Below are positions 19,651 through 24,863 of a stretch of 64,000 nucleotides of DNA, in pieces. How positions within the stretch are numbered: position 1 is the stretch's first letter; each line of letters starts with the position of its first letter. The DNA comes from Methylomonas sp. ZR1 (lineage in GTDB: Bacteria; Pseudomonadota; Gammaproteobacteria; Methylococcales; Methylomonadaceae), in assembly GCF_013141865.1 (NCBI RefSeq), contig NZ_RCST01000001.1, positions 1,178,001-1,242,000 of the forward strand, given 5' to 3'. The position numbers and the translations under genes are program-made. The notes beneath the pieces were generated by a model, which ran no database searches, had not been told where the DNA came from, and saw nothing but the letters and a program-made list of their open reading frames with translations.

Positions 19651-19915
19651 TCGCAACTCCTTGCTTGCTGCGCTCCAATTCGGCAATGGCACGAGTCATG
19701 CCAGAAGATACCTTTTTCAGCGTTTCCAGGTTCATGCCCAACACGATAGGCTCGGCACCACAATCGCAGCTCAGGTTGAGAAAGCACGCGCCATCATTCA
19801 TGTTCAAAGCCACCGACGATTGACCGTATAAGTGGTCGAACTTGCCTTTTTTGACCCATACGCCAAACGGTATTTCGGTTAATTGGCTGGGTTTTTTGTC
19901 AGTAGATTTTTTCAT
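19640..19915 (-). CDS. Small early-region hypothetical protein after MuB
   Basis: 91 aa from the ATG at 19915, whose A is the last base of the MuB stop; GGAGG lies upstream. 'EIPFGVWVKKGKFDHLYGQSS', 'NLSCDCGAEPIVLGMNLETLKK' with a CDC motif. Real start chosen because the longer frame begins inside MuB. Role unknown. Confidence 0.65.
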   Translation of the reverse strand: MKKSTDKKPSQLTEIPFGVWVKKGKFDHLYGQSSVALNMNDGACFLNLSCDCGAEPIVLGMNLETLKKVSSGMTRAIAELERSKQGVANVH

Positions 19916-20655
19916 CACACCACCCTCCGCTTCGGCGCTTCGCCGCTGTAAAACGTGACGTTGTGGGCTTTGCACCAACCAAGATCGATGCCTTTTGCGC
20001 CGTGCTCGGCGGCTGCTTCGCGAATTTGATCCAGGTTGACGCAGACCCGTCTTACCGAACCATGACTATCCGCCACCAGCTTGCGCAACAGCTCGTCGGC
20101 GCAATCGATGCCGGGTGCGTAGACGCTGGACAAGCGCCGTGCGTCTTCCAGATCGACAGGCAGCGCGGGCACAAAAGCCAGGATGCGGCCATGGAAGCGT
20201 TCCCACTTTTTCAGCTTTTGCGGTAGGTTTTCCTCGCCGATGATCAGAATCGGCGCTTGGCTGCCTTCGTAGATGTCGCGGACCAGTTCGACGGCTTTTT
20301 TATCCACCACGTGGTCCATTTCATCGATCACCAAAGGCCGTTGGCTGGCGCTGAGCTGGTCGCAGACTTGGTCTAACATTTCGCCTGTAGTTTGCGCGGG
20401 CTTGATGCCCATTTCACCCAGAATTTTTTGCAGGATAACTTTCTTGCTCCAGATGCTTTTGACCTGGATGTAATAGCCGCGCATCTGGTTGCACAAGTAA
20501 TTGCTGCTCAGCGATTTTCCCCAGCCGCTGGGGCCGTAGAAACAGACCATGCCCGGCAAGTTGGCATTGCGCTCTATAGCGCGCTCCAACGCGGTCTGGC
20601 ACTGCATCATGTTGCCGATATGCGCGATACCGGGGCTGTTGATTTCTGCTATCAT
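19915..20655 (-). CDS. MuB-type AAA+ transposition target ATPase
   Basis: 246 aa. Walker A 'GPSGWGKS' (about residues 41-48), Walker B 'PLVIDEMDHV' (about 107-116), and a sensor region 'PILIIGEENLP'. C-terminal helices resemble the MuB DNA-binding part. MuB (312 aa in Mu) has an N-terminal HTH domain of about 65 residues that is missing here, so this is a short MuB. It delivers target DNA to MuA and protects phage DNA from self-insertion. The start has GGAG upstream. The 63-base gap after MuA contains the inverted repeat CCGCCAT/ATGGCGG (20669-20684). Confidence 0.92.
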   Translation of the reverse strand: MIAEINSPGIAHIGNMMQCQTALERAIERNANLPGMVCFYGPSGWGKSLSSNYLCNQMRGYYIQVKSIWSKKVILQKILGEMGIKPAQTTGEMLDQVCDQLSASQRPLVIDEMDHVVDKKAVELVRDIYEGSQAPILIIGEENLPQKLKKWERFHGRILAFVPALPVDLEDARRLSSVYAPGIDCADELLRKLVADSHGSVRRVCVNLDQIREAAAEHGAKGIDLGWCKAHNVTFYSGEAPKRRVV

Positions 20656-20668
20656 TTTGTCTCCGTGA

Positions 20669-20684
20669 CCGCCATGGATGGCGG
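20669..20684. repeat. Perfect inverted repeat between MuA and MuB
   Basis: CCGCCAT-GG-ATGGCGG, 14 bases upstream of the MuB start. May form a weak hairpin that sets the MuA/MuB ratio, or may be a protein site. No T-run follows, so it is not a terminator. Confidence 0.5.
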
Positions 20685-20718
20685 AAATGTCGCTGTTGTA
20701 TGGAACATTCAGCGACGG

Positions 20719-23151
20719 TTAACCGGTCGCGGAATCGCGGCCGGCGTTGTAATACGCTTCCCAGGACTTATATTTGGCGGTCGTTGGGTAGCTGCTCATA
20801 AACATCTGCAATTCATCCGGGATTGCCGTCCCGTTTGCAGATTTTTGGGTCCACTCGCGCCAGAACAAATGGCGCTCGCGGGGGTCTTCCGGGATGGTGA
20901 CAGCCATCCTGGTCGATACTTTCTCTTCGATCTTCTTCGCAGTGATTTCCAGCCCAGGCACTTGATTGGCGGGGATGGCTTCAAGTAGTCCATAGTCGGC
21001 GTCCAATAAGCCGTTAAGCTCGATGTCCGCCACATCAAAACGCTCTTGGCCCAATTTCTTTTTGGCCTTGGCGCGTTGAATCTTCAAATTCTGTCTTGGT
21101 GTGATTGGGAAAGCGGCTACCCGGTTGCCGTTCCACTCAGCCACGCAGATCGCCACACCATCCAAATCCGTTACCCACACCTGATCGGCGTTGTATAAGT
21201 CGTAATACATCCTGACCTTGGTATTGGCAGGCAAAGCCGCCAATGCCGCGTGGAAATAGATGTTGTTCAAGTGGCGAATTTCGCCGCGAGCCGGCGTCCG
21301 TTCTTTAAATGGACGATACAGCGTGGCTTTTTCGTCATCCGTCAAATGGCAATGCCAGCTATCGTCGAAGTTGGCGTAATACACCTCGGCCGGCGTTTTG
21401 CCGCCCAAAGCGCTATGTTTGTGCTGGGTGTTGTACCACTCAAATCGCGCCTCGCAGGCTGCGATAAATTCTTCCCAAAACGGCACGTTATCTGGCATCT
21501 CGCCATTCTTGTTTTTAGCGGAATTAATGGCGACGGTGTTCTTCCGCAGGGTCTCGGCATCCATACCGGTGCCTTGGAAGGTCGGAAACTGTTTGGCGGC
21601 CCAAATCGTGGTAACGTCCCACATGCCTTCAATAATGCCGCGTCCTTGCGGATTGCCTGGGATGCCGGTTTCGTGTTGCACGCCCAACCTTGCTAACATG
21701 CCGCCAGCAGGGCAGTCGATGGTTTTGGCGGTTTGGCCGGAACCGTTATCGCTGTAATAGATCAGTGGTTTGCCATGCTTGACCATCGCATTGCCCAAGG
21801 CTTCTGAAACCGCGATTTGGTTTTCCGACAAACTAAATGCCCATCCCACGATAAACCGGCTGGCAGCATCAATTATTACTGTCACTTCAGGCGTAAACGC
21901 CAGACGGTCTGGCGCATCCGGATGCCGCACCTTGGCTTTAAAGCTGTGACCGTCGCCTACCCAAATCTCGTTGGAATCGCCTGACCAATCCCGTCGCGTA
22001 AAAGCCTGCATGGCTTTGTACTCAGCACCTGTCGAGCGCCCCCATTCCAATACCAGTTTCGGCACGGTTTTCAGCAACCGCCGCACGGCAAATTCACTGG
22101 GGATGGATTCGGATAAACCGCGCTCTTCAAAGTCGGCCGCAAATAGCCTATACGCTTCGCTAATCCCCGGTTTCTGCGGCTTCCGGTAAAAGCCAAAATA
22201 CCAATTTAACCAAACCACATCGCGCCAATCGGTTTTCACGCGAGTTTTCATTGGCGTGCAACTGCCGGCATCGTCCCGCAACTTTGCCCAACGCTGTAAA
22301 GTTCTAGCCGCTAACTTCCCAACCCGTTCGGCATTCGCTTTATCGTTGCAATGCAATACAGCATTGTGCAGATCAATATCCAGAGTGCCAGCGGCAAAAC
22401 CCTCGTTAATGAACGCTACCGCCTTTTCTAATTTTCCAGGGTATTTGCTGACAAAATTGAGAATGTATTGGCGCGCACCATCCCGAATGCGCTGCTTTTC
22501 GTCGGTTTTTACAGGTTGTCTATGTCCTGTTGGTAATCCTGCATATACCCCAGGAATAAGACCACCGTCAGATGTCCGCGCGCTGTTAACTGCCACCAAA
22601 CCTTGTCCTGAAACTTGATTTTCCTGACCAGGCCCAATGTTTCCAGCTTGCGCACTTGCAACAGGTCCGTTAACAAGTCTTCCGTCATGATCTCCGGCAC
22701 CTGATGAAACGCTAGCGAGTACGTTTCCGCCCATTCTTGCGTGTTCTGGTAATGCCACATCGGCATAATTGCATGTAGCTTTCCCTTGGCTTGAGCCAGG
22801 AACGACAACTGGTAGATAGTCAGCTGTTTTTCCATTGCCAGAATTTCGTCCATCTGCTGTTCGGTCATGTCCTCCATCGTTAACTTGTCTGGAAATTTTA
22901 GCACTTGCGGCTTGTCTTGCTTGCTCATTGCTAACTCCTGGGGTATAGCGTTTAATAAAAACAGCTTCTTGAATGTGTTGCGGCAACCGTTTGATCAAAA
23001 ACCATTTTTTCTTATTTTTACCACGGCTTTTTCCTTCTTTACTTTCCCATTTGCCATCGTTGGCCATACGCTCAACGGTGCTTTTGCTTTTGCAAATCGC
23101 TGCTGCGATTTCCTCGGCATCGGCATACAGGTTTTTGTCGATCTCGCTCAT
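20719..23151 (-). CDS. MuA-type DDE transposase with ~140-residue insertion
   Basis: 810 aa; Mu's own MuA is 663. Residues 1-70 match the enhancer-binding Mu DNA-binding domain ('YADAEEIAAAICKSKSTVERMA'). Residues 75-214 are a Gly/Ser/Ala/Asn-rich linker with no folded look. From ~215 on the end-binding domains and catalytic core follow: D400 in 'WVGDGH', D468 in 'YSDNGSG', E508 in 'GIIEGMW', with HTH-like and barrel regions afterwards. The first catalytic Asp is shifted 131 residues from its position in MuA, which equals the insertion. The insertion covers a complete out-of-frame gene with its own ribosome-binding site (22509-22928). The start overlaps the upstream stop (ATGA). Confidence 0.93.
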   Translation of the reverse strand: MSEIDKNLYADAEEIAAAICKSKSTVERMANDGKWESKEGKSRGKNKKKWFLIKRLPQHIQEAVFIKRYTPGVSNEQARQAASAKISRQVNDGGHDRTADGRNSGNGKTADYLPVVVPGSSQGKATCNYADVALPEHARMGGNVLASVSSGAGDHDGRLVNGPVASAQAGNIGPGQENQVSGQGLVAVNSARTSDGGLIPGVYAGLPTGHRQPVKTDEKQRIRDGARQYILNFVSKYPGKLEKAVAFINEGFAAGTLDIDLHNAVLHCNDKANAERVGKLAARTLQRWAKLRDDAGSCTPMKTRVKTDWRDVVWLNWYFGFYRKPQKPGISEAYRLFAADFEERGLSESIPSEFAVRRLLKTVPKLVLEWGRSTGAEYKAMQAFTRRDWSGDSNEIWVGDGHSFKAKVRHPDAPDRLAFTPEVTVIIDAASRFIVGWAFSLSENQIAVSEALGNAMVKHGKPLIYYSDNGSGQTAKTIDCPAGGMLARLGVQHETGIPGNPQGRGIIEGMWDVTTIWAAKQFPTFQGTGMDAETLRKNTVAINSAKNKNGEMPDNVPFWEEFIAACEARFEWYNTQHKHSALGGKTPAEVYYANFDDSWHCHLTDDEKATLYRPFKERTPARGEIRHLNNIYFHAALAALPANTKVRMYYDLYNADQVWVTDLDGVAICVAEWNGNRVAAFPITPRQNLKIQRAKAKKKLGQERFDVADIELNGLLDADYGLLEAIPANQVPGLEITAKKIEEKVSTRMAVTIPEDPRERHLFWREWTQKSANGTAIPDELQMFMSSYPTTAKYKSWEAYYNAGRDSATG
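22509..22928 (-). CDS. Nested gene inside the transposase gene, putative winged-helix protein
   Basis: 139 aa in a frame different from the transposase, wholly inside it. The ATG at 22928 has AGGAG six bases upstream. The product looks far more like a folded protein than the transposase frame at the same place: 'MTEQQMDEILAMEKQLTIYQLSFLAQ', 'MPMWHYQNTQEWAET', then a MarR-like part 'LLTDLLQVRKLETLGLVRKI' and 'KVWWQLTARGHLTVVLFL'. The transposase there is a low-complexity linker. I infer that a small gene entered the linker region and the transposase frame was kept open through it. It is probably co-expressed with transposase; possible regulator. Family not recognised. Confidence 0.72.
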   Translation of the reverse strand: MSKQDKPQVLKFPDKLTMEDMTEQQMDEILAMEKQLTIYQLSFLAQAKGKLHAIMPMWHYQNTQEWAETYSLAFHQVPEIMTEDLLTDLLQVRKLETLGLVRKIKFQDKVWWQLTARGHLTVVLFLGYMQDYQQDIDNL

Positions 23152-23594
23152 TCCCGTTCACCCAACAGCTTTTTCAATACCTGTTCCTGCTTGCGCAATT
23201 GGTCTTTCATGCTTTCCAGCTTGCCCAGTTGCGCTTCCAAGGCCTCTTTACCAACGCTGAGTTTTGCCCCACGCAAATCCGCCAGAAAAGCCAACACTTC
23301 ATGCGTTTCCAGAGCCATTTCCAATGCGGGCAGATACTCGGCCGGAAAGCGCCAGCCTTCGCGGCTTTCCGCTGTCCAGCTGTCCAATTGATGCTTGGTG
23401 ATTTCATGCCCTACCAGCTCGCTCATCCGCGCCGCTATTTGGTGTCTGGACTTGGGGCAAGCCTTGATTTGCTCGCTAATCAGGTGCCTAAATTCCATGC
23501 CAATGTCTAACGATCCAGGTTTGTTGCCACGCTCAACCGGCACGGTAAAAAAGCCGTCAAACAGATCGACAGTCAATGCATCACGCGCTTTCAT
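23148..23594 (-). CDS. Early protein between Ner and transposase
   Basis: 148 aa. N-terminal part 'MKARDALTVDLFDGFFTVPVE', middle 'HLISEQIKACPKSRHQIAARMSELVGHEITKHQLDSWTAESREGWRFPAEYLPALEMALETHEVL' (HTH-like, with the pattern R..IA..MS.L.G..I....L..W), and a C-terminal coiled coil 'ESMKDQLRKQEQVLKKLL'. Proteins of this type lie upstream of transposase genes in many transposable phages. DNA binding is probable. Stop and transposase start overlap (ATGA). Confidence 0.75.
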   Translation of the reverse strand: MKARDALTVDLFDGFFTVPVERGNKPGSLDIGMEFRHLISEQIKACPKSRHQIAARMSELVGHEITKHQLDSWTAESREGWRFPAEYLPALEMALETHEVLAFLADLRGAKLSVGKEALEAQLGKLESMKDQLRKQEQVLKKLLGERE

Positions 23595-23937
23595 GGCTAT
23601 TCATTTTTGCCAGTTTGGCATTGACGCTATTACGGCGGCGTGTAGACTGTAAGGCGTGGAAACCCACCAGTTTGCGAGTGCCATCTTTCTCATAACGACT
23701 GGGCCAAATCTCCTTGGGGTGTCTATCAAGGACTTCGGCAATGCGTTTTTCACCGGCGGGTGAGCTGTTTCGTAGCGCTTTGGATAGAGATGATCCATCG
23801 CTCAGCTGGTAATGTTCAGCTAACGAGGTGATCGTATAGCCGGCCATATTCAGTGCCGCGAGAATCTGTGCAGGGTGCCAATCGGTATCGGGTGCAACCG
23901 ATACCGGATTGGCTTTTTTTGGGGCTGCTGTTTGCAT
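23581..23937 (-). CDS. Ner/Nlp-type early regulator
   Basis: 118 aa from the ATG at 23937. The longer start at 23964 is rejected because the promoter -10 box lies at 23974-23979 and would leave no leader, whereas 23937 has AAAGGA nine bases upstream. 'DWHPAQILAALNMAGYTITSLAEHYQLSDGSSLSKALR' (pattern DWHPA.I..AL...G.....LA....LS...L..AL) and 'HPKEIWPSRY' are diagnostic of Ner/Nlp. In Mu, Ner represses both the early and repressor promoters soon after infection. It is the first gene of the early operon. Confidence 0.92.
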   Translation of the reverse strand: MQTAAPKKANPVSVAPDTDWHPAQILAALNMAGYTITSLAEHYQLSDGSSLSKALRNSSPAGEKRIAEVLDRHPKEIWPSRYEKDGTRKLVGFHALQSTRRRNSVNAKLAKMNSHESA

Positions 23938-23973
23938 AACTTGTTGTCCTTTGGTGTGTTTCAAGGTGTGCTA

Positions 23974-24002
23974 ATTAGACGCCATATTTAACGTGTTGTC
24001 AA
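23974..24002 (-). promoter_or_regulatory. Early promoter (Pe-like), sigma70 type
   Basis: On the minus strand TTGACA (23997-24002), 17-base spacer, TCTAAT (23974-23979). This is close to consensus and reads into ner and the transposition operon. An inverted repeat TTAACGT...ACGTTA overlaps its -35 side and could be the Ner site. The first repressor-type operator copy begins 23 bases upstream. Confidence 0.82.
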
Positions 24003-24024
24003 ATGCGTAAACGTTATTTTTTAC

Positions 24025-24157
24025 ATGCGGCAATTAGTTTTGCGCGCCATATCTGGTGATTTTATGAAAAACCAATTAAATCAAAAACATAGAATTGCCG
24101 CATGTGCGGCAATAGAAACTAGCTCCATGCGGCAATTCACGGGATCAATTGCCGCAT
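24025..24157. promoter_or_regulatory. Repressor operator array (five copies of ATGCGGCAATT)
   Basis: Copies: 24025-24035 (+), 24093-24103 (-), 24105-24113 (+, 9 of 11 bases), 24127-24137 (+), 24147-24157 (-). The second and third form the palindrome ATTGCCGCAT-GTGCGGCAAT; the fourth and fifth form another inverted pair. They lie between the divergent ner and repressor genes and are the likely binding sites of the repressor. The last copy contains the repressor's own ATG. Confidence 0.85.
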
Positions 24158-24863
24158 GACCATCGGGAGCAGATTAAAGCAATGGAGGGCGTCAAATAAA
24201 ATGAGTCAAGAGGATGCGGCCTTACTATTTGGCGTCTCTTATGGTGTGTATCAAAAGTATGAATCCGATAGGACGATCCCTGGCGGTGATGCGGTTAAGG
24301 GATTTATTGAGGCAGGCATCAATGCCAACTGGCTAATGACAGGCGAAGGCCCAATGCTGCTGGAAGATGCCAAGCAGCTGCCGCCTGAATTGCAAGCCGG
24401 CATTGACTTTGCGCTTTCTTTTGCGGGCGATGAAGAGGCCAAGCGCCGCCTCCAAGCCCGTCAAGAGGAGCAAAGCGCCAAATCAAGGCAGATCGAGGCC
24501 GATCTACAGGCCATCGAGATAGAGGAGGGCTTGCAACTGCCACAGCTGACGCGCATGAACTTTTGGTCATTGATGGCAATGGATCAGGCGTATACGCCGG
24601 TTATTCGCCTGGCGGTCAAGGAGCTGGCGGAGTTTATCCGGCAAATTGAGGCCAAATCGGCCCCGATCCCCACATCACCAGTGAATTACAAGCTGTTGCA
24701 GGATTTGATAGAGTCGCTGGAAACCGCGCTGGATGAACGCAATCTGGAATTGACGCCAGCCCGCAAGGCGGCCGTGATTCAGTTGATGTACGAGTATTGC
24801 AAGCTGGAAGATGATGTGAGTGCTCCGGCCACGGTGGAGAGATTCCTTAAATTAGTGGCGTAA
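24156..24863 (+). CDS. Phage CI-like repressor (HTH_XRE)
   Basis: 235 aa. 'IGSRLKQWRASNKMSQEDAALLFGVSYGVYQKYESDR' (residues 3-39, given as pattern R.K..R...K.SQED.A...GVS.....YE..R) is a complete XRE helix-turn-helix, so the start must be at 24156. This ATG is inside the last operator copy and has no Shine-Dalgarno sequence, so a leaderless or very short leader mRNA is likely. A downstream ATG (24201) with GGAGG would cut the HTH. The remaining part is helical with no S24 peptidase motif, so RecA-driven self-cleavage is not expected. Plus strand, divergent from ner. Confidence 0.88.
   Translation: MTIGSRLKQWRASNKMSQEDAALLFGVSYGVYQKYESDRTIPGGDAVKGFIEAGINANWLMTGEGPMLLEDAKQLPPELQAGIDFALSFAGDEEAKRRLQARQEEQSAKSRQIEADLQAIEIEEGLQLPQLTRMNFWSLMAMDQAYTPVIRLAVKELAEFIRQIEAKSAPIPTSPVNYKLLQDLIESLETALDERNLELTPARKAAVIQLMYEYCKLEDDVSAPATVERFLKLVA

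Follow-up and report, generated by a model that had tools for sequence, protein, structure and literature searches.

A putative winged-helix gene nested in the linker of a Mu-type transposase from Methylomonas sp. ZR1

Introduction

Can a phage enzyme house a complete second gene in another frame of its own coding sequence, and which of the two readings is then the older one? This question is raised by a 64,000-nucleotide stretch of the 5.18 Mb genome of the host Methylomonas sp. ZR1 (contig NZ_RCST01000001.1, positions 1,178,001 to 1,242,000; termed the window in the following), where the gene of a Mu-type (DDE) transposase A of 810 amino acids (20719..23151, minus strand) encloses an open reading frame (ORF) of 139 codons (22509..22928, minus strand). 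Nested overprinted genes are known from the phages phiX174 (B in A, E in D) and lambda (Rz1 in Rz); the usual account of such genes is that a new protein arises on top of an existing one. A preliminary description of the window DNA had proposed that a small gene entered the transposase linker without breaking the long frame. Our sequence comparisons indicate that the ORF is very probably a real protein-coding gene, nested in the +1 frame of the linker between the I-alpha-like and I-beta-like domains, and that both frames are under selection.

Results

The nested ORF (22928 to 22509) lies wholly within the 810-codon transposase gene in phase +1, covering transposase codons 75 to 215. Its ATG is preceded, at a distance of six bases, by the Shine-Dalgarno motif AGGAG (22935..22939, minus strand), which doubles as transposase codons; the preliminary description had placed both correctly. 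The enclosing protein matches Pfam, PHROG and structure profiles, including Mu-transpos_C (38.1 bits) and the integrase core rve (34.8 bits) above the curated Pfam cut-offs, phrog_310 (E 2.4e-121) and the MuA transpososome structure (4fcy_A, 1.4e-8). With these two domains and a MuB-like ATPase gene that follows, it is predicted to be a MuA-type transposase. Like MuA, it is a DDE transposase with N-terminal DNA-binding domains, but it is longer by about 145 residues, which are read from the DNA of the nested gene in the other frame. The 810 residues and the first catalytic Asp, D400 in our alignment, bear out the window side of an earlier length comparison; MuA has 663 amino acids, with the corresponding Asp at D269.

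In the structure model of the transposase, the N-terminal I-alpha-like domain (residues 1-71; 22939..23151, minus strand) is folded; end-binding (I-beta/gamma-like), catalytic and C-terminal domains extend from residue 217 onwards (20719..22503, minus strand). Residues 72-216 in between all score below 50 in the predicted local distance difference test (pLDDT). The Gly/Ser/Asn-rich linker that shares its DNA with the nested gene (residues 75-215; 22507..22929, minus strand) is accordingly modelled as unfolded.

Homologues of the nested protein occupy the same place in related transposases. A protein database search with the 139-residue product returned two close relatives of equal length, which are 90% and 71% identical, and the viral contig L003 has a homologous frame of 143 amino acids, with its own Shine-Dalgarno, at the same place in a 789-amino-acid transposase. 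Relatives of the transposase were collected by a profile scan (best 80 of 112 viral loci, plus 13 genome loci). In subfamily 1, a nested homologue is present in each of the 11 loci whose transposase is complete (window, L003, L017, L019, L020, L021, L022, L023, L029, L096 and L097), always in phase 1 and with its start at transposase codon 71-80; they represent 10 distinct loci, L019 and L020 being nearly identical. L097 belongs to a Methylobacter genome, which falls into the same family as the window's host. Five members of the subfamily-1 clade (L024-L028, 652-668 amino acids) are without the nested ORF.

A profile of the nested family, compared with all ORFs of 108 loci and the window, matched these 11 loci and L016 (E 1.1e-14), a nested copy cut by the contig end; the next best match had an E of 1.1. 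The profile had been built from most of the loci that it matched, which makes these matches true by construction and only L016 independent. Because the family profile is circular for its own members, hold-out profiles were run, and every group was recovered without itself, with E ranging from 4e-38 (L019) to 0.0013 (L097, the weakest); for the L097 kin P0016 and P0017, the hold-out E was just 0.05 and 0.18. P0002, P0003, P0004, P0010 and P0012-P0017 are proteins without DNA and were excluded from the nesting counts.

A second subfamily, with a core 20-24% identical to that of the window transposase, was found by a nested-profile search of 237 genomes of the host's family, six of which gave a match, the window's own genome included. 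Nested copies were detected in L125 (at the position of L115), L128 (at that of L112), L129 (at that of L116) and, as a weaker match (E 0.002), in L139, while L127, L130 and L131 (670-700 amino acids) have no nested family member. L127 and L128 are 97% identical (327/336; window residues 375-680), yet only L128 carries the nested gene; L127 has a 90-codon +1 ORF from a TTG at codon 7, which does not match the nested family. When the long-linker loci of both subfamilies were read at the DNA level, a nested +1 ORF was present in 16/16 and homologous to the family in 15 of them, homology not being shown for L126. The observation named at the outset as refuting a nested gene, a related transposase with the linker and no open nested frame, was thus made at none of these loci.

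At the corresponding linker position, L126 has a +1 ORF of 158 codons, which begins at transposase codon 92 and has a strong Shine-Dalgarno. This ORF does not match the nested-family profile (E 91) and may be another gene lodged at this site.

Outside the two subfamilies, distant long-frame transposases (e.g. L034, L046, L050, L051, L058, L061, L069 and L077) gave no nested-family match; where their extra length is located was not worked out. Several more distant Mu-type transposases (L061, L075, L053, L058 and L050) contain alternative-frame ORFs of 175 to 298 codons in phase 2, which are probably compositional in origin. In 50,697 phage records, tblastn searches with four nested proteins found no match; the window transposase matched 154 of the same records, and among the 20 listed matches, alignments begin at residue 214 or later. 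Scans of 369 genomes of the class and 398 of the phylum each detected the nested protein in a single genome, the window's own, and further viral-contig scans with nested proteins returned no copies other than that of the window itself and those of L003, L023 and L029. A profile search of 5.8 billion proteins yielded nine matches within an E limit of 10, of which eight had an E below 1e-3 and some were already part of the query.

Substitutions in the shared DNA follow the nested frame. Between window and L003, differences at the three transposase codon positions number 52/24/21 over the nested span (139 codons), the reverse of the pattern in the downstream transposase (166/135/298 over 496 codons; p = 1e-4 against uniform, 9e-8 against downstream). 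Among five pairs compared in this way, deviation from uniform was significant in three (p 1e-4, 0.011 and 0.017) and not in two (0.08 and 0.28), while all five differed strongly from the downstream gene. Nested codon position 3 was the most variable in 42 of 50 pairs, not so in seven and tied in one (five pairs below 25% identity excluded). When single changes were classed by their effect in both frames, those silent in the nested frame only exceeded those silent in the transposase frame only in 6/6 near pairs chosen (rates of, for example, 0.46 vs 0.14; Fisher p = 2e-6 for window and L003). Alignment of relatives and comparison of both frames, two of the checks proposed at the outset, hence point to purifying selection on the nested frame, which is clear in near pairs and weaker with distance. 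An RNA element was also considered as the cause of conservation, and was rejected because an Rfam search of 20000-24500 gave no match and the three-base substitution pattern favours a protein.

Could a linker of odd composition merely happen to be stop-free in one other frame? Two observations speak for such a chance ORF and count against a real gene. The longest +1 stop-free run in the window transposase, 161 codons, was equalled in 39 of 2000 synonymous shuffles and is only mildly unusual, so that the length of the nested ORF alone is barely evidence against chance; and other parts of the gene contain even longer ORFs in an alternative frame in several relatives, with 298 codons in L061, for example. 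With the transposase protein fixed and its codons shuffled, 2 of 20000 shuffles kept the +1 frame of the window open, compared with about 20% for L019 and L020. Conversely, with the nested protein fixed, about 2-9 stops were expected in the transposase frame per locus, and none was observed in any locus, although L019, L020, L021, L029 and L097 are individually not extreme, their transposase frame being open in 1-10% of shuffles. We accept the nested ORF as real because homologues occur at the same site and in the same frame in relatives, and because the nested frame is under selection in near pairs. Moreover, its Shine-Dalgarno is conserved and a standalone homologue exists (see below), which leaves a chance origin with a practically negligible probability. 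A second frame that is open, lies wholly inside the first and is homologous in diverged relatives is what characterizes an overprinted gene, and all of this was found here.

The nested protein likely initiates independently, judging from the sequences upstream of its start. A Shine-Dalgarno precedes all 11 subfamily-1 nested starts, with free energies (dG) of -5.6 to -9.2 kcal/mol; at -6.9, that of the window is not equalled at any of the 32 other out-of-frame ATGs of the transposase. The nested motif is stronger than that of the listed transposase start in 9/11 loci and unmatched by other out-of-frame ATGs in 7/11, although in five of the 11 loci the nested start was picked among several with the Shine-Dalgarno in view. 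Ribosomes might instead enter the nested frame by programmed frameshifting from the I-alpha domain, producing an I-alpha/winged-helix fusion and no separate protein. Upstream of its ATG, the nested frame indeed stays open for 22 codons in the window and for 9 to 45 codons in L003, L021, L022, L023 and L029, and an in-frame Shine-Dalgarno-like stretch can also stimulate frameshifting. However, the upstream open stretch measures just 3-5 codons in L017, L019, L020, L096 and L097, and the standalone homologue is equipped with a Shine-Dalgarno and an ATG of its own, making this explanation very unlikely.

The database version of the window transposase, P0005, has 625 amino acids and starts inside the nested gene; annotation thus appears to clip the N-terminal domain and linker. 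The same entry could be taken to support a three-gene arrangement, in which an I-alpha peptide and the nested protein are followed by a transposase shortened to a downstream start, all the more as MuA can work without I-alpha under certain conditions, according to one study (PMC3362531). Such an arrangement would leave the transposase frame free to close within the nested gene, where it is open in 16/16 loci against the roughly 2 to 9 stops expected in each; we regard it as highly improbable.

The nested gene and its host have different histories. Window and L003 are 71% identical in the nested protein, 55% in the downstream transposase and 45% in the N-terminal part, and their DNA identity rises close to where the nested gene starts and drops again close to where it ends. 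The opposite is seen for L003 and L096 (nested 33%, downstream transposase 68%), while the downstream part of L097 is nearest to L019 (72%) and L023 (70%) and its nested protein to L017 (42%). From these comparisons, nested cassettes are exchanged between transposase backbones. Since the cassette has its own history, the substitution rate of the nested span is unusable as a clock against flanking DNA. A quick tree of 34 selected rows (14 nested, 19 not, L126 included as a row but left out of homologue and trait counts) requires at least five changes of the trait, four of them forced by well supported branches; a 43-row tree, mostly of subfamily 1, requires two.

A standalone homologue of 125 amino acids (L114:1480-1857) is flanked by a transposase and by a gene that, by eye, resembles the Ner-like gene of the window; its contig also contains the nested copy L116. 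Profiles from which this homologue had been left out still detected it (34.5 bits; hold-out E 1.1e-8), and it has its own Shine-Dalgarno, GGAGG, with an ATG. The frame equivalent to the transposase frame contains 10 stops in this homologue, compared to none in five nested copies checked alongside. The C-terminal stretch of the homologue resembles the C-terminus of the Ner-like protein encoded on that contig (RMAKAQAKA), which might reflect an origin by recombination.

Codon usage favours the nested frame over the transposase frame in 10/11 loci. Because of this, and because the other frame is closed in the standalone homologue, the transposase linker is probably the newer, overprinted reading and the nested gene the older one. 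The scenario of a small gene in the linker is supported, and relatives without the gene are indeed shorter, even at the 97% core identity of L127 and L128. It needs two refinements: the overprint is most likely the linker and not the gene, and an exchanged cassette takes the place of a single event in one phage.

The genes around the transposase have the order Ner-like gene, regulator, transposase A and MuB-like ATPase on the minus strand. The Ner-like repressor (23581..23964) matches phrog_769 ('transcriptional repressor'); the early transcriptional regulator (phrog_2345; 23148..23594) overlaps the transposase start by 4 bases; and the MuB-like AAA ATPase (phrog_296, E 1e-58; AAA_22) is the next early gene (19915..20655). 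The same transposase occurs at 100% identity on an IMG/VR viral contig of 35 kb. Window positions 19915-20976 resemble L005:5083-6094, with 78/85 of the last transposase residues and 245/247 positions of the MuB-like proteins identical (stop included), whereas tblastn between the two transposases gives a best segment with just 41% identity. Given this difference, it seems that B and the C-terminal part of the transposase are passed on together as one module.

Discussion

We propose that the early transcript could be translated in two ways, into the full-length transposase through the whole gene and into a putative winged-helix protein by way of the nested Shine-Dalgarno and ATG. The linker would tolerate added residues, and the other frame of a folded gene would have become a floppy spacer in it. 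Such a long spacer may be acceptable because the I-alpha/I-beta linker of MuA (amino acids 65-89) is highly insertion-tolerant, many insertions even raising activity, as stated in the study cited above (PMC3362531).

The preliminary description had considered the nested product folded and winged-helix-like, and structure models suggest helices, a two-stranded wing and a long C-terminal helix. This predicted arrangement resembles that of MarR, HxlR, ArsR and TubR proteins, from which the nested protein differs in having no sequence-family match. Over 19 nested-family members, the best Pfam match had an E of 0.032 and the best PHROG match an E of 0.0065, and MarR, ArsR and HxlR models were absent from the Pfam matches of these members at E up to 0.1.

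A protein of this kind, produced in step with the transposase, could be an early regulator with the operator/enhancer region or the transpososome as its target; the transposition enhancer of Mu is bound by the I-alpha domain (PMC3362531). This function is a guess, which we consider somewhat less than even in probability. Its main functional competitor is an accessory role without relation to transposition, for instance in superinfection exclusion or counter-defence, for which the linker would only be a landing site. The exchange of cassettes, their patchy presence between near-identical transposases and the acidic character of the window protein (pI, i.e. isoelectric point, 5.3) would fit such a role, and overlapping genes in the early region of another Mu-like phage, Fc02, function in superinfection exclusion (PMC9936078). 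All copies for which DNA was read are nonetheless tied to transposase A, being nested in it or, once, standing alone a few hundred bases upstream, and an accessory role therefore appears rather unlikely to us, though conceivable.

Whole-gene overprinting as such is known. The window gene resembles the phiX174 and lambda examples as a whole gene inside another in a different frame; it differs in the proteins and host gene involved, in a host frame that is predicted to be disordered, in the exchange of the cassette and in the standalone homologue. We know of no nested gene of this sort in MuA of Mu. The olg1 and olg2 genes of the Mu-like Pseudomonas phage Fc02 are likewise alternative-frame genes in the early/immunity region, but they lie beside the repressor gene, on the forward strand and outside the transposase (PMC9936078). 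The word 'nested' is absent from the main text of PMC3362531, and no description of a nested gene in any MuA-type transposase was found in the open literature, most subscription journals lying outside this search. As far as the literature search shows, what is new here is a nested gene of Mu-type transposases that is conserved and exchangeable, shares its DNA with a host frame predicted to be disordered and also has a homologue standing alone.

Conclusions

In contrast to the usual account of nested genes, the order looks reversed here, with a folded gene as the older and an enzyme spacer as the newer reading, and the standalone homologue with its closed frame provides a natural control. Found in two transposase subfamilies and transferred between backbones, the arrangement amounts to a repeated natural experiment in two frames sharing DNA. 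Where a gene caller avoids long same-strand overlaps, it may report one product and truncate the other, as in the one case here, where the database transposase has 625 instead of 810 amino acids; nested families like this one may for that reason be under-represented in databases. We lean slightly towards the view that essential phage enzymes can house exchangeable cassettes, in which a folded gene has a harmless disordered linker as its other frame and is swapped in a fixed frame. On this view, whole genes would be parked in disordered linkers, and the transposase linker would be a de novo product. If this is true, the gene would always be inherited and expressed together with transposition.
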